Source: Taklimakanibacter albus (GTDB lineage: Bacteria; Pseudomonadota; Alphaproteobacteria; Rhizobiales; Aestuariivirgaceae). Taken from it: a stretch of 64,000 nt of DNA. The notes beneath the pieces are model-generated. The model ran no database searches. It was not told where the DNA came from and was given only the letters and a program-made list of their open reading frames with translations. The translations under genes were made by a program, and so were the position numbers. The stretch is taken from NCBI RefSeq assembly GCF_016595235.1, contig NZ_JAENHL010000006.1, positions 1,302,001 through 1,366,000 of the forward strand, written 5' to 3'. This document shows, piece by piece, positions 25,199 through 44,123 of this stretch (position 1 is its first letter; every line of letters starts with the position of its first letter).

Positions 25199-26107
25199 TC
25201 ACTCCCTCCCCTTGCGCGGACCGGCATAAAGTGCTGCCGCCCCGATGATGCCGGCTGTGGCGTTGAGCGCGCTCGGCAGGATCGGCAGGTCGCGGCAATC
25301 CGCGGCCCAGATATAGGCCGGCACCTTGGCCCTGAGCATATCGAAGAAACGCGGCGCCGTGCCGAGGCCACCGCCGATCACCACGCCATGGGGATCGATC
25401 ATATTGATGATCTGCCCGATATAGCTGGCGAGCGCTGTTGTCGCCTCATCGAGGAGCGCCGTCCCTTCCGGCCCAGCCCGCTCTTCGACCATGTCGCGCG
25501 CCGTGGCCTCACGTCCGGTCCGCAGCTGATAGACGCGGCTCATGCCCAGGCCCGACGCGAAGCTTTCCAGATTGAACACCATCTTCCGGCCACTGGCGGC
25601 GTCATAGGAGACGAGATCGCCGGACGCGAAATGGATGGCGAACCCATGGGCGCCACGCCGGATCACACCATCCTCACAGACCGCACAGCTCAAGCCCGTG
25701 CCGATCGAGACGAAGACGAAGCTCGGCAAGCGTAAGCCATGGCCGTAATGGAGTTCGGCCAAGGTCGCGAGCCGCACATCGCTGTCGACCGTCACCGGAT
25801 GAAACCGGGCGAGGTCTTTGGTCAGGTCGCGCTTGCGCCACGGGGTGATCCAGTCGCTCGCCGGCACGCCGTCGAGCCGCACCAGCTCGGGCAGCCCGAT
25901 GCCGATGCCGAGTGGAACGACATGGGCGGCTTTGGCGGCCTCCTGCATGCGCTCCGCCACCCCGGCGATGGTGGCGAGCATGGTCTCGGCGCTCTCGCCG
26001 CGCGGTGTCGGCATTTCCGCCTGTATGATGAGCCGACCAGCCGTCAGATCGACCAGCCCGGCGGCGATCTTGGTGCCGCCGATATCGATGCCGATGGCGG
26101 TGCGCAT
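25199..26107 (-). CDS. ROK-family sugar kinase
   Basis: This 302-residue kinase has the N-terminal phosphate loop AIGIDIGGTKIAAGLVD and VDSDVRLATLAEL with the catalytic Asp. FVSIGTGLSCAVCEDGVIRR and NLESFASGLGMSR follow. The usual CxCGxxGCxE zinc motif is missing. ATG at 26107 overlaps the TGA of the NagB-like gene by one base. It probably phosphorylates the imported sugar or amino sugar in the cytoplasm, before the NagB-like and isomerase-like enzymes of the same operon. Confidence 0.87.
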   Translation of the reverse strand: MRTAIGIDIGGTKIAAGLVDLTAGRLIIQAEMPTPRGESAETMLATIAGVAERMQEAAKAAHVVPLGIGIGLPELVRLDGVPASDWITPWRKRDLTKDLARFHPVTVDSDVRLATLAELHYGHGLRLPSFVFVSIGTGLSCAVCEDGVIRRGAHGFAIHFASGDLVSYDAASGRKMVFNLESFASGLGMSRVYQLRTGREATARDMVEERAGPEGTALLDEATTALASYIGQIINMIDPHGVVIGGGLGTAPRFFDMLRAKVPAYIWAADCRDLPILPSALNATAGIIGAAALYAGPRKGRE

Positions 26108-26898
26108 CACGCCCGCGCCGCCGCTTCATCGGCGAGGATGACGCCACCCCGGCAGATCGAGACGACGCTCGCCGGCCAATCGGGATCATAGTCTTCTGCC
26201 TTGCTGAGACGGTCGAAAGCCAGCCGCTTGCCCTCGCCCCAGACGATCATCACCCCCTGCTTCGAGTGGCGCGCGATCGTATCGATGCCGACGGTGACGC
26301 CGAAACGCGGCACCTCGTCGAGCGAGCGGAAATCCGGAAAGGTCTTCATATTGTCGCGCCGCGTCTCTTCGGCGAGCGGCACGATGCGCGACCGGCTCTC
26401 GCGCGCGCTGCCTTGCGGATTGAAGGCGACATGGCCGTCGCTGGCGCCCGAGGCGAGGATGAACAGATCGATGCCGCCCGCCGCTTCGATCCTTGCGTCA
26501 TAGGCGGCGGGATCGCGCGGATCGGGGAACCAGATCTGCGCTGCCGGAATACGGAAAGGCGCCGGCAGGCCCGCATTCAGCACGCCGGCAATATCGTCGC
26601 GCGCGAAGCGGCGGCAGGAAAAGTGACTTTCGATCGGCACATGATCGAGGCCGGACGGCGTCTCGACCAGATAGTCGTCCATCATCACGATGACGACGTG
26701 GCTCATATCCTGCGGTGCCGTGGCGAGCGCCGCGCCCATCGCGTCATAGACGGGTTTGGGCGAACGGCCGCCCGGACAGCCGAGCAGGAAGGACCGCCCG
26801 GCAGTTTTGGCTTGCGCGACCTCATTAAGAAGACGCGCGGCGAAGTGACGGCCGAGCGTTTCGGGATCGGCGTAGATCTTGGGCGTGATGAGGCTCAT
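26107..26898 (-). CDS. Glucosamine-6-phosphate deaminase (NagB)-like protein
   Basis: This 263-residue sugar-phosphate isomerase fold protein has LLGCPGGRSPKPVYDAMG, VVIVMMDDYLVE (equivalent of NagB Asp72) and GASDGHVAFNPQGS, which keeps the Asp and His of the NagB ring-opening triad. The Glu of the NagB FNEPGS motif is Pro here. RSRIVPLAEETRRDN and VTVGIDTIARH further match NagB rather than 6-phosphogluconolactonase. It lies between a TIM-barrel isomerase and a ROK kinase, suggesting an amino-sugar or related phosphate as substrate, but the altered triad makes the exact reaction uncertain. Confidence 0.8.
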   Translation of the reverse strand: MSLITPKIYADPETLGRHFAARLLNEVAQAKTAGRSFLLGCPGGRSPKPVYDAMGAALATAPQDMSHVVIVMMDDYLVETPSGLDHVPIESHFSCRRFARDDIAGVLNAGLPAPFRIPAAQIWFPDPRDPAAYDARIEAAGGIDLFILASGASDGHVAFNPQGSARESRSRIVPLAEETRRDNMKTFPDFRSLDEVPRFGVTVGIDTIARHSKQGVMIVWGEGKRLAFDRLSKAEDYDPDWPASVVSICRGGVILADEAAARA

Positions 26899-27752
26899 CG
26901 GGCGAGTAGGTCCTGAAGATAAATGAGATTGCGGGCGGCGAGCGCTTCGGGCGTCTCGGTCGCATTGTCGCTCGGATCCTGCTCGACGATGCAGGGGCCC
27001 TCATAGGCCTTCTCTTTGAGCAGTGCGATCACCGCCGCAATATCGACGGCGCCATCGGGAAGCGGGCACATGACACCTTGGGCGAAGGACTCATTGGGGC
27101 CGAGCTCGCCTTTGAGCACCCGGGCGCGCATAGCGGGATCGACATTCTTCAGATGCATATACCCGATGCGATCCCAGACTTTGCGCATATAGGCGACAGC
27201 ATCCTGGTCCCAGAAGGCATGATGGCCAGTGTCGAAGCACAGATCGACCTCGGTGTCCTGGAGCAGCCGGTCGATCTGCGCCTCACGCTCGACACAGGTG
27301 CCGACATGCGGATGAAAGGTGAGCCTGACGCCATAGGTCTCGGTCACATACCGTAAGGAGTCGCGGACATGGCCGATCATCACGCGCCAGCCGGCTTGAT
27401 CGACCACGCCGGGCTGGCCCGGCGGATACCATTCGCTTTCATCCATCAACGCCAGATGCGGCGCATCGAGCCTGGACAGCAGGCTGCCGAGCCGGTCGAG
27501 CGCCGTCCGGAGCACCGGCCACGAGCCAGGCTCGGCCAGCACATGGACATGGGCGGCGCCGGCGAGCGTCAGCGCGCGGCTCGCCAGCGCGTCGGCGAGC
27601 GCGGCCGGATCGTCAGGCAGAAAGCCCAGGGGCCCGAGCTCTGTCGCCCGGTACCCGGCGCGCGCCACCGCATCGAGATACTCCTCAGCGGTGAGGCGAT
27701 TGCCGGTGGGATAGAAGACGCCCCAGGAACAGGGCGCGTTGCCGATCAGCAT
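26895..27752 (-). CDS. Sugar phosphate isomerase/epimerase, TIM-barrel (IolE/IolI-like)
   Basis: This protein of about 285 residues begins MLIGNAPCSWGVFYPTGNRL; the GNAPCSWG opening and GYRATELGPLGFLPDD are typical of inosose dehydratase IolE-type xylose-isomerase-fold proteins. LTFHPHVGTCVE, LCFDTGHHAFW and YMHLKNVDP supply the metal-binding His, Asp and His residues. An alternative GTG start four codons upstream (27764) lacks room for a Shine-Dalgarno sequence. It overlaps the NagB-like gene by four bases. The substrate is probably a ketose or inosose derived from the imported sugar. Confidence 0.82.
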   Translation of the reverse strand: MLIGNAPCSWGVFYPTGNRLTAEEYLDAVARAGYRATELGPLGFLPDDPAALADALASRALTLAGAAHVHVLAEPGSWPVLRTALDRLGSLLSRLDAPHLALMDESEWYPPGQPGVVDQAGWRVMIGHVRDSLRYVTETYGVRLTFHPHVGTCVEREAQIDRLLQDTEVDLCFDTGHHAFWDQDAVAYMRKVWDRIGYMHLKNVDPAMRARVLKGELGPNESFAQGVMCPLPDGAVDIAAVIALLKEKAYEGPCIVEQDPSDNATETPEALAARNLIYLQDLLAR

Positions 27753-27825
27753 AGGTTCAGTCACTTTCCATAAGAAGGATGGCCGGCCGCGGGAGGAATG
27801 CGGCCGGCCATCGGCGGCTTATGTC

Positions 27826-29094
27826 TTACCACTTGCCGCGTTGTTTGATCTTGTCGAGATCGGCGGCGAGTGTCTTCAGGGCTTCCGCCGCCTCCGCCTC
27901 GCCCGCCAGCACGCCATGCACCGCCTTATAGAAAGCCTGCGAAACACGGTTGTAGCTCGAGCCGGTTACTGCTGACGGCCGCGCCACGCTTTCGGCGAAG
28001 GCGGTCTGCGCGTCCTTCAGGAACGGCAGCGCCTTCAGCACCTCGGCATCGTCATAGAGCGCGGAGATGGTCGGGTTATAGGCGCCGGCGATGGCGCGGC
28101 GCTTCTGCTCGTCGAGCCCCGACATGAAGCGGATGAGGCTCACCGCCGCTTCCTTGTTCTTGGTGTATTTCGAGACACCGAGATGGGCGGTGCCCATGCA
28201 GCCGCTCGACTTGGCGCCTTGCGCGCCGACAGGAAGCGACGCGACGCCGACCTTCCCGACCAGCGGCTGGTCCTTGCCTTGCGAGGTGCCCCACACATAG
28301 GCCCAGTTGCGCAGGAACACTGCATTGCCGGCCTCGAAGGCACCGCGCGAGGATTCCTCGTCATAATTCAGGACGCCTTGCGGGCTGATATTATTCACCC
28401 AGCCTTTGGCGAGAGTGAGCGCCTCGGCCGCCTTGGCATTGTCGATGGTGATATTGCCCTTCTCGTCGATGATGGTGCCGCCGCCGAAGCTGCCGACCCA
28501 TTCGATCGCATCGCAAGTGAGGCCTTCATAGGATTTGCCCTGCCACACATAGCCCCACATGTCCTTATTGCCGGCGGCGCGTTCACCGTCCTGCACGGCC
28601 TTGGCCGTCTCGGTGAGCTCGGCCCAGGTCTTCGGCACCGGCTTGCCGTATTTTTCCAGCAGGTCCTTGCGATAGAACATCAGCCCCGTATCGGTGTACC
28701 AGGGCAGCGCCACGAACTTGCCTTCGACCGTGCCGGCCGCGACGGTCGAGGCGAAATGCGCTGCGATATCTTCCTTCGGCAGCTCGGCATTGAGGTCGAG
28801 CAGATGGTTCTGCAACAGGCCGATCCACACCACATCGAGGAGGAGCACATCGGCATCGGCCGACTGCGCCGACAGCAGTTGCTGATAGAGCGGCAGCGCC
28901 TCGTCCCAGGCGGCCGGCATCTTGTTGATCTTGACCTCGTTGCCCGAGCTCTTGGCCCAGGCCTCGGCGCCCTGCTTGCACAATTCATATTCGGCACCCG
29001 ATGACGAGCAGAACAGCGACACCGTGGCGGCCGAGGCCTGACCGGCCCAGAGCAACATGCCGGCAACCGCCGCCGCACCCAGAAAATGCTTCAT
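27826..29094 (-). CDS. Sugar ABC transporter substrate-binding protein
   Basis: This 422-residue CUT1-type extracellular binding protein begins at ATG 29094 (MKHFLGAAAVAGMLLWAGQA), with GGGAGGG upstream and a clear signal peptide (cleavage after ASA). WDEALPLYQQLLSAQSADAD, VLLLDVVWIGLLQ and FVALPWYTDTGLMFYRKDLL are family segments. It is the first gene of the seven-gene operon running down to 22411 and carries two operator-like inverted repeats in its promoter. A 62-codon upstream open extension lies across the operators and is not used. Confidence 0.93.
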   Translation of the reverse strand: MKHFLGAAAVAGMLLWAGQASAATVSLFCSSSGAEYELCKQGAEAWAKSSGNEVKINKMPAAWDEALPLYQQLLSAQSADADVLLLDVVWIGLLQNHLLDLNAELPKEDIAAHFASTVAAGTVEGKFVALPWYTDTGLMFYRKDLLEKYGKPVPKTWAELTETAKAVQDGERAAGNKDMWGYVWQGKSYEGLTCDAIEWVGSFGGGTIIDEKGNITIDNAKAAEALTLAKGWVNNISPQGVLNYDEESSRGAFEAGNAVFLRNWAYVWGTSQGKDQPLVGKVGVASLPVGAQGAKSSGCMGTAHLGVSKYTKNKEAAVSLIRFMSGLDEQKRRAIAGAYNPTISALYDDAEVLKALPFLKDAQTAFAESVARPSAVTGSSYNRVSQAFYKAVHGVLAGEAEAAEALKTLAADLDKIKQRGKW

Positions 29095-29138
29095 GAAACC
29101 CTCCCTATCCCGGCTTCCAGCACCGGGTGACGCGACTA

Positions 29139-29188
29139 TAAATCCACTTACTGGATTTACCAAGTTATAATTCCAGATAGTGGATTTA
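29139..29188. promoter_or_regulatory. Tandem operators for the sugar operon
   Basis: TAAATCCA-CTTAC-TGGATTTA (29139-29159) is a perfect 8-bp inverted repeat. TAATTCCA-GATAG-TGGATTTA (29168-29188) is the same motif with one mismatch, centred 29 bases away. Both lie 45-95 bases upstream of the binding-protein start. The same right half-site occurs at the ROK regulator gene (21180-21187), which makes that regulator the most likely ligand. The plus-strand 928-residue gene starts at 29261, on the other side. Confidence 0.72.
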
Positions 29189-29260
29189 TGCGGTGAACGG
29201 CTTGCCCGCCTCCCACCGCCATGCGACGTTGGGTCAATCAGCCCCTTTTGAGTCTCCCGA

Positions 29261-32047
29261 ATGGCCGAAGCGAAGAGCACCCGACCTCAGGCCGCATCGC
29301 CGGCAAGGATTCTCGTCACCGTCCACGGCATCCGCACTTTCGGGCAATGGCAGGACCGCCTGAGAAATCTCACCCTTCAGGCCAATCCGGGCATCCTGGT
29401 GGAGAATTACGGCTACGGCTATTTCAGCGTCATCGCTTTCGTCATCCCCCTCTTCCGCTGGCTGGCGGTGCGGTCCTTCAGGAACAATCTCAAGGTGCTG
29501 ATGAAGTCGCATGAAGGGGCCAGCTTCACCTTCGTGGCCCATTCCTTCGGTACCCATCTCGTCGCTCATGCATTACGCAGCATGAAACCGGACGAGCGGC
29601 CGGATGTCGAGCTCATCATCCTGTCCGGCAGCGTCCTCAGATCGGCTTTCGACTGGGCATCCTTGATGAACCCGGCGCCGGGCAAGCCCGGCATCCGGCG
29701 CGTCATCAATGACTGCGGTCTGAATGATTCAGTCCTGATCCTGAGCCAGGCCGGCGTCCTGTTCACCGGCATGGCGGGCCGTGTCGGCTTCTACGGCTTC
29801 ACCGGCGCCGACCTGGTCAACCGCTTCTTCCCCGGCGGCCATAGCCATTATTTCATGCCACCGGGCGATGATCCCGACGCCTTCATGAAGCGCTACTGGG
29901 TGCCGGTCGTGGCGGCCGGAGAGGCGGCTCTGCCCGGCCTGGAAATCCCGGTCGCCGGCACGCTTAAGGGAATCCAATATGCGCTCTACCGGGTCGCCGA
30001 TCCGATCAAGCTCGCGCTATACGGTCTGCTGGCCTTCATCCTGGTCAACTACGCCTATCTCCAGCCCCGCGCCGAGGCGCGCCTCGAGCAGGCGCGGCGC
30101 GAATATCTGGCGGCCGCCGCGCAGACGGTATCGGACCGCACTTTGCCCGATGCCTTCAGCACCCTGTCGTCGATCTTCCAGCGCGGCCTTCTGAGCTCCG
30201 GCAACGACCGTGACAGAGCTTTGACCTTGGCGCGTTTTTCGCTCCAGCGTCTGGTGCCGGCAAGCACCGCGCTCGACGGCATCACCGAAGGCAGTCTCTT
30301 CGGCTGGGGCGACTTCAGCTATCTCAAGGCCGGCAGCCCTCTGCGGATCGCGATCGAAAATCCGCTCGCCGCCATTGGCGATGACGCCACGCACAAGCTC
30401 GTCGCGCTCGACCGCAACTCGTCCATCATGGTCCTCGATGCGCAAACCGGCCGTATCCTGCAGCAGTATCGCGCCGACCCGGAAGGCGATGTCAATTCGC
30501 CGGTTCTGTTCCAACGGCTCAAGGACGCGCCGGGCCGTTATCTCGTGACATTCGGGACTGAAGCTGCGAACCAGGATGAAGACAATGCATGGGTCTTCAG
30601 CCTCGACCTCGCGACAGACACCGTGTCTCTTGCCAAACCCGGCCTTACGCCGACCGAAGACTGTGCCGGCTTCGTCGACCTGGTCAATCTCGATCCCGAT
30701 GATGACGACAGGACACTGTCGCAAGAGGAACAGCAGCAAATCGACGCGGAAAAGGAACGCCGCCGGCGGGTCGAGAAGAAATGCCTCATTTCCGTTTCAC
30801 CCGACCAGGCGGCCGTGCGTTTTCTCGCCTTTCCCCGCGCCCGGTCGGAGGCCCTTCTGTGGACGAGTGAAGCGCGTCCCGCCGCCACTGCGGACGACAG
30901 CCTGACCTGCCCGTCGATCCGCCCGAACTTTGCTTTTACCTTGCGCACCGACATCGACCGCCTCGACTTCTCAGGCCTCCCGTCCGCCGAAGGCGAAGTG
31001 AGCGCCGATGAGGCGAAGCGCGCCTTTATCGACCAGAACGACTTTGGCTGTTTCATCGATTTCGTCGGCGCCGGCGGCCGCCACTTCATCGCGACCATGG
31101 TGGTTTCCGGGCAATGGAATTTCAGCTGGCTGCTCTGCGCGCTGAAGGATGATGTCGCCGCCGAGAAATGCCGCTTCGCCGGTCTGAATTGGGACTCTCA
31201 TTCGAACTTCATTCTCTCGGCGGACAAGGCGCGTCTCGCCATTGCGGCGCGCGGCATGCTGGACATGCCCGCCTGGCTCGAAATGGATTTGAACAGCATG
31301 ACCGTGCGCTATCCGGATGTCTGGGCCAACAGCCGGACGATCGCCATGGCCTATTCCGGCGAGGCCCTGATGACCGTCTCGCCGGCGCGCGGGGTGGCCG
31401 GTGGCGTCGAGGTCTGGGCTTATGGAACCGACGCGACTCCCACGCTGCAGGCCCGGCGTATTTTTGTCGCGCCGGAAGGTCTGGGCCTGGACGAGGAGCA
31501 GATGCGGTCCACCGTCGAAAAAACCGCATTGTTCGACTCCGATGGTGCGATCGTGCTGGCGACGCCCTTTCAGCAGTTGTCGGCGCTCACCCTGCAAGAC
31601 ATCTCATCATTGCCTGGGTGGCTCAGAACAGCGCTGACCTGGCTGCGATGGCAGGCCAAAGGCGAAAGCCTCATCGCCTCGTCCTGGAATGTTTCCGAGA
31701 CCGGTCTTGATCCGAAGGGAACGGTGACCTTCGCCATATCTCCCCAACGCAGTATCCTGGCGATCGCCAGCGGCACGTCATTGCGCCTGTTTCAAACCTC
31801 GGATGGGCGCTTCCTGTCCAACTCCATCGATCTCGCCACCCTGCCCGGTTGCGCAGGCCCGATCGAAGCTCTCGCCGTAGCCGATGATCTTTCCGTCACC
31901 GCCACCATGGCGGGCTGCATCGCGCATCGCGCATCGCCGCCGGGCATCGGCGAAACAGAATCCGTACTCGCCAATCCTGAGGATTTTCTCGGTGGCGGAA
32001 CACCCGTCGACCGGCGCCTCCCGGGCGAGCGGCCTCTGCCCAAATAA
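29261..32047 (+). CDS. Alpha/beta-hydrolase, membrane helix and beta-propeller-like protein
   Basis: This 928-residue protein has an N-terminal alpha/beta-hydrolase-like domain with the oxyanion region VTVHGIRTFGQWQ (residues 20-31) and a nucleophile elbow FVAHSFGTHL (Ser95). Candidate His residues lie in GGHSHYFMP near 194-196. One strong hydrophobic helix (about 249-268, LALYGLLAFILVNYAYL) splits it from about 650 residues rich in short beta-strands. Stretches such as LVALDRNSSIMVLDAQTGRI and FAISPQRSILAIASGTSLRL have the look of WD40/PQQ propeller blades. There is no signal peptide. The LytM gene follows after 30 bases in the same direction. I recognise no characterised protein with this layout. 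Confidence 0.8.
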   Translation: MAEAKSTRPQAASPARILVTVHGIRTFGQWQDRLRNLTLQANPGILVENYGYGYFSVIAFVIPLFRWLAVRSFRNNLKVLMKSHEGASFTFVAHSFGTHLVAHALRSMKPDERPDVELIILSGSVLRSAFDWASLMNPAPGKPGIRRVINDCGLNDSVLILSQAGVLFTGMAGRVGFYGFTGADLVNRFFPGGHSHYFMPPGDDPDAFMKRYWVPVVAAGEAALPGLEIPVAGTLKGIQYALYRVADPIKLALYGLLAFILVNYAYLQPRAEARLEQARREYLAAAAQTVSDRTLPDAFSTLSSIFQRGLLSSGNDRDRALTLARFSLQRLVPASTALDGITEGSLFGWGDFSYLKAGSPLRIAIENPLAAIGDDATHKLVALDRNSSIMVLDAQTGRILQQYRADPEGDVNSPVLFQRLKDAPGRYLVTFGTEAANQDEDNAWVFSLDLATDTVSLAKPGLTPTEDCAGFVDLVNLDPDDDDRTLSQEEQQQIDAEKERRRRVEKKCLISVSPDQAAVRFLAFPRARSEALLWTSEARPAATADDSLTCPSIRPNFAFTLRTDIDRLDFSGLPSAEGEVSADEAKRAFIDQNDFGCFIDFVGAGGRHFIATMVVSGQWNFSWLLCALKDDVAAEKCRFAGLNWDSHSNFILSADKARLAIAARGMLDMPAWLEMDLNSMTVRYPDVWANSRTIAMAYSGEALMTVSPARGVAGGVEVWAYGTDATPTLQARRIFVAPEGLGLDEEQMRSTVEKTALFDSDGAIVLATPFQQLSALTLQDISSLPGWLRTALTWLRWQAKGESLIASSWNVSETGLDPKGTVTFAISPQRSILAIASGTSLRLFQTSDGRFLSNSIDLATLPGCAGPIEALAVADDLSVTATMAGCIAHRASPPGIGETESVLANPEDFLGGGTPVDRRLPGERPLPK

Positions 32048-32077
32048 CTCCTCGATTTCACGCGACGAAGGATTTCC

Positions 32078-33085
32078 ATGTTTCCCCGCTTTGAGCACCG
32101 ATCCACAAAGCTTTCCGCCGCAAGTCTGGGCGCTCTGCTTCTCCTGTCTTCGCCATCGCCTCTCCTGGCCGAGACGCAAGACGCGCCACCGGCGCAGATC
32201 ACTTTTGCCTGGCCGATCGGCGGCCTCGCCGAGCTCGGCTTCGGCCAGCCCGACGGCGCTGGCGGCAGGCTGCAAGGTATACTTTTTGGTGTGAGGAAGG
32301 ATTTCACTCTTCGTGCCGCTGCGGATGGTACGGCACTGTATGCGGGGCCGTTTCGCAGCTACGGTTCTCTTCTCATTCTCGACCATGGCTGTGGATTGAA
32401 CAGCATTCTCGCCGGCGCGCAGCAGCTGTCGGTGACGATCGGGCAAAAGGTCCGCCGCGGCGAGCCGGTCGGCAGCGCGGCTACGTCGACTCAAAATGAA
32501 GTGAAGATCTATTTCGAGCTGCGTCGGAACGGCATCGCCATTGCCCCCTATCTCGTGATGCCGCCACAGGGCGCCACCACGCCGCGCACCGTACGGTGCA
32601 CCGGCGTGAAGACCGACGAGGCGCCCGTCGATCCACAAACCGATCAGCCGGCAGCCGAAACGGCGCCGGCCCCGCCCGAACCCGCTTCCGCGCCATCCGC
32701 CGGCAAGATCGTCTGGACGGGTAAGTGGCCCTGGCCAGCCCGGGGCGAAATTCTCCGGGCCTTCAAGGTCGACGGCAATGACGGCATCAACATCGCGGTG
32801 CCCGAAGGCACCAATGTCAAGGCGGTTGAGAACGGCATCGTCATCTATGCCGGTGACGGCCTGAAGGACTTCGGGAACACGGTGCTCGTGCGTCACGAGG
32901 GCGGATTGGTGACAGTCTACGGTCACCTGAGCGAGCTCAAGAAGAAGCGCGGCGAGAATGTCCGGCGTGGCGACGTGATCGGCAAGTCCGGAAAGACCGG
33001 CGTGGCGCGCGAGCCTCAGCTGCATTTCGAGGTGCGGAAAAAGTCAGCGCCCGTCGATCCGGCGGAGTATTTGCGGGCGCCGTGA
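32078..33085 (+). CDS. LytM/M23-family murein hydrolase activator-like protein (degenerate)
   Basis: This 335-residue protein has a signal peptide (SLGALLLLSSPSPLLAE). It has two LytM-like halves: a weak one at about residues 40-170 and a clear one from about 210 (GKWPWPARGEILRAF) to the end, joined by a Pro/Ala-rich linker. The zinc ligands of active M23 peptidases are changed: the HxGxD motif reads NDGINIAVPEG, and HLHFE reads PQLHFEVRKK, while VYGHLSEL remains. This resembles NlpD/EnvC-type LytM factors, which activate amidases instead of cutting peptidoglycan. It is probably cotranscribed with the hydrolase-propeller gene. Confidence 0.85.
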   Translation: MFPRFEHRSTKLSAASLGALLLLSSPSPLLAETQDAPPAQITFAWPIGGLAELGFGQPDGAGGRLQGILFGVRKDFTLRAAADGTALYAGPFRSYGSLLILDHGCGLNSILAGAQQLSVTIGQKVRRGEPVGSAATSTQNEVKIYFELRRNGIAIAPYLVMPPQGATTPRTVRCTGVKTDEAPVDPQTDQPAAETAPAPPEPASAPSAGKIVWTGKWPWPARGEILRAFKVDGNDGINIAVPEGTNVKAVENGIVIYAGDGLKDFGNTVLVRHEGGLVTVYGHLSELKKKRGENVRRGDVIGKSGKTGVAREPQLHFEVRKKSAPVDPAEYLRAP

Positions 33086-33091
33086 TGCGGT

Positions 33092-33403
33092 TCAGTCGGG
33101 GCAGCTTCTGGCGACGATCTCGATCTTGAACTGACGCGGTCCGACACGTTGCCCGTTGTCGGGCATATCGACGATGGCGACGTCGACATGGCAAGGACCG
33201 GCCGTCACCCGATAACGATCGGTCTTGAGACTCTCGATGCGGTCGATGGGCTGGCTGACATTGAACGCATCGACGACCGCCGGATCATCGAGGATCGCCT
33301 GAAGCTCGGCGATGCGCTGATAGTTCGGCGCCAAGGCGGCCTGTGCGAGCGAGACAGTCGAAAGAACCAGTGCGCCGGCACACAGGAACCGCTTCAGCCG
33401 CAT
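33092..33403 (-). CDS. Small secreted protein of unknown function
   Basis: This 103-residue protein has a signal peptide (MRLKRFLCAGALVLSTVSLA, cleavage after AQA). The mature part contains two Cys (GPCHVDV and the C-terminal RSCPD), consistent with one disulfide. No family recognised. It is convergent with the LytM gene (six-base gap) and lies downstream of ssb beyond two hairpins. Confidence 0.68.
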   Translation of the reverse strand: MRLKRFLCAGALVLSTVSLAQAALAPNYQRIAELQAILDDPAVVDAFNVSQPIDRIESLKTDRYRVTAGPCHVDVAIVDMPDNGQRVGPRQFKIEIVARSCPD

Positions 33404-33433
33404 GGTCTCCCCCCGTTACACTTTCTTGGAACA

Positions 33434-33481
33434 ACAGCTTCCCAAGCTGTGGCCCGGGGCGGTTCAGTTCCCGCCCCGGCC
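33434..33481. terminator. Two adjacent hairpins between ssb and the small secreted-protein gene
   Basis: ACAGCTT-ccc-AAGCTGT (33434-33450) and GGCCcGGGGCGG/CCGCCCCGGCC (33451-33481) are directly adjacent. They lie about 26 bases past the ssb stop on the minus strand and upstream of the secreted-protein gene. Neither is followed by a long T run on the minus strand (TTGTTCC), so they may attenuate rather than stop transcription. Confidence 0.55.
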
Positions 33482-33506
33482 ATTTTCGTCAATCGGGCAA
33501 CCCGCC

Positions 33507-34004
33507 TCAGAACGGCACTTCGTCGTCGAGATCGCGGGCGAAATTCTGCTGCGGGCGGGCACCGCCGCCGCTGCGCGGACGTTCCATCGGGCTCGACTGG
33601 CCAAAGCTGTCGCCGTTGCCACCGCCGAAACCGGCGCTGTCGCCGCCACCGCTGCGCCCATCGAGCATGGTGAGCTCGCCGCGATATTGCTGCAGCACCA
33701 CCTCGGTCGAGTATTTCTCGACGCCGTCCTTGTCGGTATATTTGCGCGTCTGCAACTGGCCCTCGAGATAGACCTTGGCGCCCTTCTTCAGATACTGCTC
33801 GGCGACCTTCGCCAGATTCTCGTTGAAGATGACGACGCGGTGCCACTCGGTGCGCTCCTTGCGCTCGCCCGACTGCTTGTCCTTCCAGTTCTCCGAGGTG
33901 GCGATCGAGAGATTGACGATCGGGCGGCCGTCCTGCGTATGACGCACCTCCGGATCCTTGCCGAGATTCCCCACCAGAATGACTTTGTTCACCGATCCGG
34001 CCAT
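33507..34004 (-). CDS. ssb: Single-stranded DNA-binding protein
   Basis: This 165-residue protein begins at ATG 34004 ([20 protein letters not shown]), with AAGGAG upstream; an in-frame extension to 34061 is rejected. The OB-fold occupies about residues 1-112, followed by a Gly/Ser/Asn-rich linker and the acidic tail DLDDEVPF, which binds repair and replication partners. It coats single-stranded DNA during replication and repair. A GTTC-N7-GTTC box at 34134-34148 suggests LexA control. Confidence 0.96.
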
Positions 34005-34095
34005 ATCCGCTTCTCCTTGCTTTCCGGGCACCACGCGTGGTCGCGCCACATTCATAAACATCGATCAGGGATGGTGATCTACCAAAGCTCACCTG

Positions 34096-34112
34096 CGATC
34101 CACTGTGGATCG
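34096..34112. promoter_or_regulatory. Palindrome in the ssb/RidA divergent region
   Basis: CGATCCAC-T-GTGGATCG is a perfect 8-bp inverted repeat with a single central base. It lies 92 bases upstream of the ssb start and 84 bases upstream of the RidA start. The compact odd-length palindrome looks like a regulator binding site rather than a terminator. The regulator is unknown. Confidence 0.45.
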
Positions 34113-34133
34113 TATGTTATCCCCGGGTAATAT

Positions 34134-34148
34134 GTTCTCTTTATGTTC
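34134..34148. promoter_or_regulatory. Alphaproteobacterial SOS (LexA) box
   Basis: GTTC-TCTTTAT-GTTC is an exact match to the GTTC-N7-GTTC direct repeat bound by LexA in alphaproteobacteria. It lies 130 bases upstream of the ssb start and 48 bases upstream of the RidA gene. A similar site with one mismatch lies before uvrA. ssb is the more likely target, as it belongs to DNA repair. Confidence 0.7.
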
Positions 34149-34195
34149 CAGAATCAAGCGCTATAAGGGCTGTCCCGTCGAAATAGGAGATTTAA

Positions 34196-34588
34196 ATGCT
34201 GAAGCAGATCGAGACCGATGCCGCCCCCAAGCCCTTCTCCAATTATGCCCAGGCGATCGAAGTGGCGCCGGGCGCCCGCCATCTGTTCGTCGCCGGCCAG
34301 GTCGGTGCCGATCCGGCGACCGGCAATATCCCTGAAAGCGCGGAAGAGCAGCACCGCCTCGCCTGGGCCAATGTGCTGGGCATATTGAAGGCGGCCGGCA
34401 TGGACCATCGCGCCATCGTCGATGCGCGGGTCTTCATCACCGATCGCTCACAGATCGGACTTTACCGGCAGGTGCGGGACGAGATTCTGAAGGGTCACAA
34501 AGCGGCGGCGACCTTGCTGGTGGTCGCGGGCCTGGCCGATCCCAGGCTGGTCGTCGAGGTTACCGTCATAGCAGCGGCCCCGGTCTGA
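34196..34588 (+). CDS. RidA/YjgF-family protein
   Basis: This 130-residue protein has the Rid fold. The family's conserved segments are visible as LFVAGQVGADPATGNIP near residue 30 and DPRLVVEVTVIAA near the C-terminus, where the Arg is the substrate-carboxylate ligand of active imine deaminases. AGGAG lies seven bases before the ATG. It probably hydrolyses reactive enamine/imine intermediates made by PLP enzymes, although several Rid subfamilies have other or unknown roles. Confidence 0.88.
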   Translation: MLKQIETDAAPKPFSNYAQAIEVAPGARHLFVAGQVGADPATGNIPESAEEQHRLAWANVLGILKAAGMDHRAIVDARVFITDRSQIGLYRQVRDEILKGHKAAATLLVVAGLADPRLVVEVTVIAAAPV

Positions 34589-34622
34589 GATCGACAGGAG
34601 CCGCATCAAGGGTCAGGAGAAC

Positions 34623-34766
34623 TTAGCCGCGGACGAAGGGCTTGAACAGAGAGAAGCTCTTCGGCTCGGCGCCGTTCTTCGCAGTTGCAACATTGGCCGG
34701 ATGCTTCTGATCCTGCATCATGGCCGCGTTGTAAACATTTGAATAAGCTTCGAAAATCCAGTTCAT
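34623..34766 (-). CDS. Short conserved-looking small protein (47 residues)
   Basis: The sequence begins MNWIFEAYSNVYNAAMMQDQ at ATG 34766, preceded by AAAGGAG seven bases upstream, a near-perfect Shine-Dalgarno sequence. The C-terminus is basic and aromatic (KSFSLFKPFVRG). It lies between RidA (convergent) and the LysR gene (divergent) with a long A/T tract upstream. No family recognised. The strong ribosome binding site and AT-rich leader support expression, despite the small size. Confidence 0.55.
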   Translation of the reverse strand: MNWIFEAYSNVYNAAMMQDQKHPANVATAKNGAEPKSFSLFKPFVRG

Positions 34767-34887
34767 GATCAATCTCCTTTTTTTTGTTTTAGGCAATCTC
34801 GGTATGGGTGGAAGATAGTCAATTCGCGCTTGCACCACAAACGGCATTATCCTACGCTACCTGTAAGGAAAACTCACAGGACAGCCC

Positions 34888-35808
34888 ATGGCCCGGCGTC
34901 TGCCATCGCTTAACGCCCTGCGCGCCTTCGAGGCCGCCGCCCGGCATGAAAGCTTCACCAATGCCGCCGTGGAGCTGTTCGTGACCCATGCGGCGGTGAG
35001 CCGGCATATCCGTGAATTGGAGGAATGGCTGGGCACCGACCTCTTCAACCGCACCGGCCGGGGCGTCGAGCTGACCGATGCCGGCCGCCGCTACGGCGCC
35101 CGTCTCACCCCCCTCTTCGACAATATGGCGGAAGCGACAATCGAGGCCGCGGCACAGGGCAAGGTGCGCAGCCTCAATGTCTCGGTCGAGCCCTCGATCG
35201 CATCCCGCTGGCTGGTGCCGCGCCTCGGCCGCTTCAACGAGCTTCATCCCGATATCGAGCTCAACATCGATCCCGAGAACCGCCTGGTCGATTTCCGCTC
35301 CGACAAGGCCGATCTCGGCATCCGCTACGGTCTCGGCCGCTGGCCCGATGTCGAGATCCAGAAGCTCATCTCGGATGTCGAGATCTTCCCGGTCTGCAGC
35401 CCGCGCCTCCTCAAAGGCCCGCTCAGCCCCGGCGATCTCGCCGACTACAATCTCTTGCATGAGAGCCGTAAGCAATATTGGACCGACTGGCTCCATGCCG
35501 CCGGCATCAAGGGCGTCGAGGACTGGCGCGGCACCGTCTTCCAGGGCCATCTCGCCATCGAGGCGGCGGAAGCGGGCCAGGGCTTCGCGCTCGGCGACAT
35601 GATCCTGTGCACCGACGCCATGGCGGCGGGCCGGCTGGTGCGCCCCTTCGCTCTCGACATCAAAGATCATGGCGGCTACTTCATCGTACGCGCCAAAGGG
35701 TCTAAGGAATCAGCCCCGGCGCGCGCCTTCCGCGAGTGGCTGCAGGCCGAAATGGCCGAAACCCAGCGGAAGTTCGCGAGCATCAAGAGCGCGTCCACGA
35801 AGAAATAG
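34888..35808 (+). CDS. LysR-family transcriptional regulator, GcvA-like
   Basis: This 306-residue regulator has an N-terminal winged helix-turn-helix (LPSLNALRAFEAAARHESFT, then HAAVSRHIRELEEWLG, residues 4-45), with the GcvA-branch FNRTGRGVELTDAG after it. The C-terminal two-lobed effector domain follows (SVEPSIASRWLVPRLGRF). GcvA relatives control glycine cleavage or beta-lactamase genes, but no such target is adjacent. The next gene on the same strand starts eight bases later. Confidence 0.92.
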   Translation: MARRLPSLNALRAFEAAARHESFTNAAVELFVTHAAVSRHIRELEEWLGTDLFNRTGRGVELTDAGRRYGARLTPLFDNMAEATIEAAAQGKVRSLNVSVEPSIASRWLVPRLGRFNELHPDIELNIDPENRLVDFRSDKADLGIRYGLGRWPDVEIQKLISDVEIFPVCSPRLLKGPLSPGDLADYNLLHESRKQYWTDWLHAAGIKGVEDWRGTVFQGHLAIEAAEAGQGFALGDMILCTDAMAAGRLVRPFALDIKDHGGYFIVRAKGSKESAPARAFREWLQAEMAETQRKFASIKSASTKK

Positions 35809-35816
35809 GCCACCCT

Positions 35817-36194
35817 ATGCCCAGAAAGAAATATGACTGCCTGAAGTGCCCCGGCTATTGCTGCTCCTATCCGGTCGTCGAGGTGAAGGACCGCGATGCC
35901 GCGCGCATCGCCAAACATTTCGACCTCCCCTTGAAGGACGCCGAGAAGAAATACTTCAAGTCCGCTTACGGCTATAAGCGCGTGATGCGGCGCAAGAAGG
36001 ACAAATTCTTCGGCCGCATCTGCCAGTTCTTCGACACCGAGGCCCGCCGCTGCACCATCTATGAAGCCCGTCCCTGGGCCTGCCGTGATTATCCCGGCAA
36101 GGATAATTGCGGCTACTGGGACTTCCTCGCCTTCGAGCGCAACGCCCAGGAAGACGACACCTACGTGTCGACGACGTTCCACAACGAAAGATGA
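35817..36194 (+). CDS. YkgJ-type cysteine-cluster protein
   Basis: This 125-residue protein begins at ATG 35817 (MPRKKYDCLKCPGYCCSYPV). The CxxCxxxCC cluster at the N-terminus, GRICQFFDTEARRCTIYEAR and WACRDYPGKDNC give the eight or so Cys of the UPF0153/YkgJ zinc- or iron-chelating family. Its biochemical role is not established. It overlaps the following HisD-like gene by four bases (ATGA), so the two are translationally coupled. Confidence 0.87.
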   Translation: MPRKKYDCLKCPGYCCSYPVVEVKDRDAARIAKHFDLPLKDAEKKYFKSAYGYKRVMRRKKDKFFGRICQFFDTEARRCTIYEARPWACRDYPGKDNCGYWDFLAFERNAQEDDTYVSTTFHNER

Positions 36195-40986: not shown

Positions 40987-41166
40987 CTGGATTGTTCCTT
41001 CTGGTATCCACGTCGAGTACGCCTCGCTCCAGGCGCCTTGGACACCATTTCTTCCCCTGTGGACAGCGGAATTTCGACCCTTGTGCATAGCGGTCAAGCT
41101 GCTGACATGTTCTGGCGCTTGAAGGGGGCAGCATGCCGTCTTCGGGTGCTCATCGAGCTTGCCCGC

Positions 41167-41181
41167 GTTCTCTATTTGGTC
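41167..41181. promoter_or_regulatory. Possible SOS-like box before uvrA
   Basis: GTTC-TCTATTT-GGTC matches the GTTC-N7-GTTC LexA repeat with one mismatch, and its spacer resembles that of the ssb box (TCTTTAT). It lies 15 bases upstream of the uvrA start. The closeness to the start codon is a caution, so the promoter would have to overlap the box directly. Confidence 0.4.
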
Positions 41182-41195
41182 TAGTCAAAGCGCCC

Positions 41196-44123
<2,928 letters not shown>

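Follow-up and report, generated by a model that had tools for sequence, protein, structure and literature searches.

What a long, membrane-anchored hydrolase does beside a degenerate LytM factor is the question raised by a locus in Taklimakanibacter albus, a soil-type member of the Rhizobiales; the window analyzed here is a stretch of 64,000 nucleotides of its contig NZ_JAENHL010000006.1 (positions 1,302,001 to 1,366,000). An earlier note on this DNA had offered envelope remodeling, a lipase-like sensor, or a conflict or defense effector with a sensing propeller as possible roles for the 928-residue hydrolase. The last of these is now the best supported, with the hydrolase belonging to a family that is modular, patchily distributed, and found in defense-type contexts. 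We propose, with a confidence that falls a little short of even, that the protein is a membrane-tethered effector of the lipase or phospholipase type in a conflict system, most likely one acting against phage or in cell suicide. The interest of the locus lies mainly in the hydrolase family and less in the combination of hydrolase and LytM protein.

The two open reading frames (ORFs) lie where the earlier note had placed them, 30 bp apart, in the same orientation and both intact (Table 1), and the hydrolase gene is single-copy in the 7.17-Mb genome. Another species of the genus (genome G001, locus L009) has intact copies of both genes, with amino acid identities of 93% for the hydrolase and 87% for the LytM protein. 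The ratio of nonsynonymous to synonymous substitution rates (dN/dS) between the two species is ∼0.17 for each gene, which indicates that both are coding, are under purifying selection, and encode functional proteins. The short gap makes a shared transcript likely in the window and in G001.

Residues 12 to 230 of the hydrolase are predicted to adopt an alpha/beta-hydrolase fold. The earlier note had read VHGIRTFGQWQ (residues 21 to 31) and AHSFG (residues 93 to 97, with Ser95 in the elbow) as signs of such a domain and had suggested structure prediction as a check; the resulting AlphaFold2 (AF2) model places Ser95 as expected and is good for the hydrolase and poor for the tail. Hydrolase blocks mostly have predicted local distance difference test (pLDDT) values of 66 to 93, fair to high confidence, with a dip around residues 161 to 180, and the predicted triad Ser95-Asp156-His194 follows strands 5, 7, and 8, the order expected for alpha/beta-hydrolases. 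The nearest solved fold is the minimal lipase LipA of Bacillus subtilis (1i6w; VIA-align Z 16.1, root mean square deviation [rmsd] 2.8, 170 aligned residues between positions 15 and 223), followed by cutinase (Z 14.8) and the Legionella phospholipase PlaB (Z 14.7, but with an rmsd of 7 to 9). As the nearest folds are lipases, cutinases, and a phospholipase, the enzyme may by analogy be lipolytic, with a lipid as its substrate. No Pfam model scored above its cutoff for this domain, the match to DUF900 being subthreshold, and NCBIfam gave no match for the 928-residue protein.

Profile searches separated a family at E values below ∼1e-20 from ordinary alpha/beta-hydrolases at 1e-7 and weaker; the 1e-7 matches in many Rhizobiales genomes were excluded as such other hydrolases. 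The family is rare and patchy at E ≤ 1e-18, present in 5 of 398 sampled genomes of the phylum and, within one Rhizobiales family, in 15 of 298 genomes, and full-length homologues comprise one at 93% in GTDB contigs and one distant match in plasmids, with none in phage records. Its partners vary. On plasmids of Enterobacter and Klebsiella, receiver-hydrolase fusions are encoded next to PDC-M60-like proteins; a macro domain precedes a family hydrolase at L105:4432-5704, the two occupying a pair of overlapping frames in the assembly concerned; and a PDC-M63A/DUF6932-hydrolase fusion occurs, in one Klebsiella plasmid case flanked by GajA on one side and by OloA/OloB-like genes on the other. BilC-BilD lies upstream of a family hydrolase in Aminobacter, a SAVED protein (SAVED/CBASS gene) lies near one in Bradyrhizobium, and ten IMG/VR loci (L017 to L020 and L022 to L027) have in common a three-gene cassette encoding proteins of ∼342 and ∼128 to 130 residues and a hydrolase of ∼296 residues, complete in most loci and partial in some, at contig ends or below threshold. 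This exchange of partners is suggestive of an interchangeable effector module. A literature search, largely without subscription journals, found no publication describing the family or the layout, and the earlier note's statement that no characterized system has this arrangement holds for the libraries searched.

Two of these contexts deserve separate description. In the plasmid operons at L015:531-5705 and L016:771-5726, a protein of ∼1,100 to 1,190 residues is accompanied by a receiver protein and by a receiver-hydrolase whose hydrolase half belongs to the window family; the large protein of the L015 operon, the one scanned, matches PDC-M60A. The contigs carrying the IMG/VR cassette are prophage-like, often with integrase- or terminase-looking genes adjacent, and in the two loci scanned (L022 and L024) the first two cassette proteins matched nothing in Pfam and nothing convincingly in PADLOC. 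This cassette is a candidate system of its own.

Downstream of the hydrolase domain, the window protein has one main hydrophobic helix, in agreement with the single transmembrane helix read earlier, and a helix occurs at the corresponding place in the relatives L014, L099, L013, and L110 and at the C terminus in L022. The tail beyond it had been called propeller-like. Its strand-rich character stands, and a beta-propeller is the probable fold, an assignment made through relatives that are built in the same way: propeller models were matched at 2e-10 in one (L138) and weakly, below cutoff, in the Rhizobium proteins of L014 and L099. The window tail itself (residues 270 to 928) had no Pfam match, and its best profile match of the propeller type was a WD-repeat protein at E 0.16; Foldseek alignments of the full model cover the hydrolase alone, so that the lack of a propeller match there carries no weight. 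Similarity between tails is slight, with a match of a mere 37 residues to L138 (E 0.002) and no alignment between the window tail profile and the two Rhizobium tails (probability 0.1). All eight cysteines of the window tail are conserved in the Ensifer adhaerens protein of L012, which is 35% identical over nearly the whole length of the window protein, against an overall tail identity of 27% (hypergeometric P of 2e-5 for random placement, an overstated value, as cysteines are conserved in most proteins), and eight of eight are likewise kept within the Rhizobium pair. From this conservation we infer, with moderate confidence, that the cysteines form disulfides and that the tail lies in an oxidized compartment, the periplasm.

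Table 1. Positions of the two genes and their predicted features in the window
Feature	Position	Strand	Basis
928-residue membrane-anchored alpha/beta-hydrolase with long C-terminal tail	29261..32047	+	ORF call
Alpha/beta-hydrolase domain, residues ∼12 to 230	29294..29950	+	AF2 model, LipA structural match, family alignment
Ser95, predicted nucleophile (AHSFG), after strand 88-94	29543..29545	+	Invariant in 20/20 family members; model strands
Asp156, predicted acid, after strand 148-153	29726..29728	+	Kept in 20/20 family members; model strands
His194, predicted base, after strand 185-190	29840..29842	+	Kept in 19/20; the exception is a sequence truncated before His194
Predicted membrane helix, residues 249-267	30005..30061	+	Hydropathy; helix at corresponding place in relatives
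C-terminal region, residues 270-928 (∼650 residues): helices to ∼331, then strand-rich, probably beta-propeller	30068..32044	+	
335-residue degenerate LytM factor, putatively exported	32078..33085	+	ORF call; Pfam, NCBIfam, and PDB profile matches
First LytM domain, EnvC-like, degenerate (KIYFELR at usual HxHF)	32186..32548	+	PDB 4bh5/6tpi (EnvC), E 2e-13 to 8e-13
Second LytM domain, DipM-like, Asn234/Asn238/Gln314 at ligand or catalytic positions	32678..33064	+	PDB 7qrl (DipM), E 3.7e-29; 3slu alignment

The LytM protein appears to be exported, judging by eye from a signal-peptide-like N terminus, and has two M23 domains (Pfam PF01551, E 1.7e-48). The zinc ligands are changed as the earlier note had claimed: in the second domain Asn234 and Asn238 align with the residues, His and Asp, that an active-type M23 peptidase has at its zinc site, and Gln314 takes the place of the first His of HxH. 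We rejected the idea that these changes are unusual, since DipM carries the same letters at all three positions. The first domain resembles EnvC, and the protein differs from both DipM and EnvC in joining two degenerate domains, so that it is best described, from its profile matches, as an accessory degenerate factor, a hybrid of EnvC-like and DipM-like parts. It stays below the NCBIfam equivalog cutoffs for DipM (213.5 of 740 bits), EnvC (113.8 of 270), and NlpD (107.8 of 311), and no LysM or coiled-coil family was matched in it.

A partner of this type brings in a reading in which a lipase anchored in the membrane would cooperate with an amidase activator in ordinary lipid turnover and wall remodeling at growth and division. 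In Rhizobiales, factors of the DipM/EnvC type direct growth and division (PMC8416486), and the purifying selection on both genes fits such a role. The genome, however, has separate matches to a DipM-like 475-residue frame and an EnvC-like 432-residue frame elsewhere, which makes the window LytM protein an extra copy, and it has one Amidase_3 gene; both window genes are, moreover, accessory in the genus, and the hydrolase family is rare and in mobile contexts. We regard envelope maintenance as a distinctly less probable explanation, to which we would give slightly less than a one-in-four chance.

The distribution of the two genes within the genus bears on whether they form a unit at all. Neither gene lies beside the conserved SSB gene in two genomes (G002 and G004), and in a third (G003) the LytM gene occupies the same site with no hydrolase gene; immediately before it lies a region that is 81% identical over 146 bp to the divergent upstream region of the G001 hydrolase, beyond which the sequences part. 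We rejected the frame break in the G003 LytM gene as the mark of a pseudogene, as neighboring genes in that assembly break similarly. The solitary LytM gene after a matching upstream region, together with the lack of both genes beside SSB in G002 and G004, indicates that a one-gene hydrolase cassette has been either gained or lost upstream of LytM. The earlier note's view of a defined hydrolase-LytM pair is weakened by this and by the ordinariness of the ligand changes. There is nearly an even chance that the two are accidental neighbors, a hydrolase cassette having settled upstream of a preexisting accessory LytM gene so that transcript is common and function separate; the tight spacing kept in two species speaks against it, as do the peptidoglycan-active partners seen in loci of Rhizobiaceae.

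In those Rhizobiaceae loci the order is a glucosaminidase with a peptidoglycan-binding domain, a patatin, and the hydrolase-tail gene in Ensifer (L012), and a phage-type lysozyme, a patatin, a hydrolase-propeller gene, and a tandem hydrolase in Rhizobium (L014 and L099). A fourth relative, L138, also carries a hydrolase-propeller gene, and no gene for a peptidoglycan enzyme was found next to it, which favors accidental adjacency. A peptidoglycan-active neighbor is thus present in three of four independent cases (counting L014 and L099 once and the window and G001 once), which is suggestive of a link between hydrolase-propeller genes and peptidoglycan-active enzymes. Conservation of the pairing in relatives, raised by the earlier note, largely fails for LytM as such and survives as this looser association. 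The loci L012, L014, and L099 are plasmid operons, and in L012 two IS21-like ORFs lie between the hydrolase gene and another hydrolase fragment. Comparable patatin clusters in rhizobia also contain genes of the trypsin-like, PLD-like, and cytochrome peroxidase kinds. They bring to mind the trypsin-based conflict systems reported from alphaproteobacteria (PMC7159879), although the proteins scanned included no NucA nuclease.

Other features of the window are recorded here for completeness. On the sugar-transport side (26107 to 29261), the genes at 26895-27764 and 27829-29106 are missing in G001 between its counterpart of the gene at 26107 (k26107) and the hydrolase. A 996-residue ORF at 41133-44123, near ssb, matches PADLOC mad3 over no more than its last third; we rejected it as a defense gene, as it probably encodes an ordinary ATPase of the ABC type, for instance UvrA.

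Returning to the conflict effector, we envisage a catalytic domain at the inner membrane on its cytoplasmic side, a single helix crossing that membrane, and a large, probably periplasmic, propeller-type region that would sense a trigger or partner and otherwise keep the enzyme off. Once triggered, the hydrolase would cleave membrane lipids and disable the cell, a role proposed for alpha/beta-hydrolases in bacterial conflict systems (PMC8195603). The LytM factor, probably cotranscribed, may add wall damage or autolysis through the cell's own amidase, which is plausible because losing AmiC alleviates the toxicity of dipM overexpression (PMC8416486). Within this scheme we give the effector role about an even chance and the periplasmic sensor a slightly better one, while a functional link to LytM is its weakest step and unlikely. 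The strongest form, a one-protein transmembrane alarm in which a periplasmic propeller controls a cytoplasmic inner-membrane lipase and a linked peptidoglycan-acting protein finishes the envelope, constituting an undescribed anti-phage or suicide system, we consider improbable.

Several observations weigh against the conflict effector. PADLOC assigned the 928-residue protein to 0 families and, run on ten neighbors of the locus, gave no convincing system and no defense island. The AF2 model of the tail has a pLDDT of 33, the positive-inside charge rule is ambiguous for the topology of the helix, and the L138 tail has only 2 cysteines, which does not favor a periplasmic location; the G003 LytM gene does without a hydrolase. 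The defense contexts, suggestive in aggregate, were collected one at a time, with no estimate of how often chance would produce them, and defense genes abound in plasmids and prophages in any case. A different kind of weapon, an antibacterial toxin against competitors resembling the phospholipases of type VI secretion, finds some encouragement in Tle3 matches of two family members, weak and below cutoff, and in a DUF2235 gene near the Rhizobium leguminosarum locus. The Pfam scan, however, gave no Tle match for the window protein, the membrane anchor sits in mid-protein, and no secretion or immunity gene was noticed beside the window gene, making this very improbable.

Among described systems, the closest in outline are conflict effectors in which an alpha/beta-hydrolase, proposed to act on membrane lipids, is combined with exchangeable domains that serve as adaptors or sensors (PMC7159879; PMC8195603); one reported class has a globular domain in the effector position and a membrane segment, then TPR and a beta-propeller (Kaur et al. 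2020, PMC7159879; PMC8195603). In contrast to the vWA-MoxR beta-propeller system (Kaur et al. 2020), no vWA or MoxR was present among the Pfam-scanned neighbors, a search confined to 27829-36191. The PADLOC candidate PDC-M60 has the same hydrolase family in its plasmid-borne receiver-hydrolases, whereas the window lacks an M60A/B partner and has the tail in place of the receiver domain. The Rhizobiaceae operons have the hydrolase followed by a long eight-cysteine tail, with the membrane helix picked up in L014 and L099, but combine it with a patatin and, instead of a degenerate LytM protein, a peptidoglycan hydrolase of the active type. By analogy, fungal NLRs with a lipase or patatin plus WD40 repeats (PMC12881547) also have a lipolytic N-terminal effector and propeller-type repeats at the other end; unlike them, the window protein has a membrane helix where the NTPase domain would be, with no NTPase family (NLR/STAND) matched in it and the helix plus ∼65 helical residues lying between the hydrolase and the strand-rich region.

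The locus points to a lipase-like effector family that is common to many candidate defense loci and for which the Pfam and PADLOC copies searched contain no model. Many "hypothetical proteins" of prophages, plasmids, and rhizobia thereby form a class that is directly testable. If the tail is indeed a periplasmic sensor, the window protein would be a rare example of a conflict effector in bacteria whose trigger lies outside the cytoplasm.

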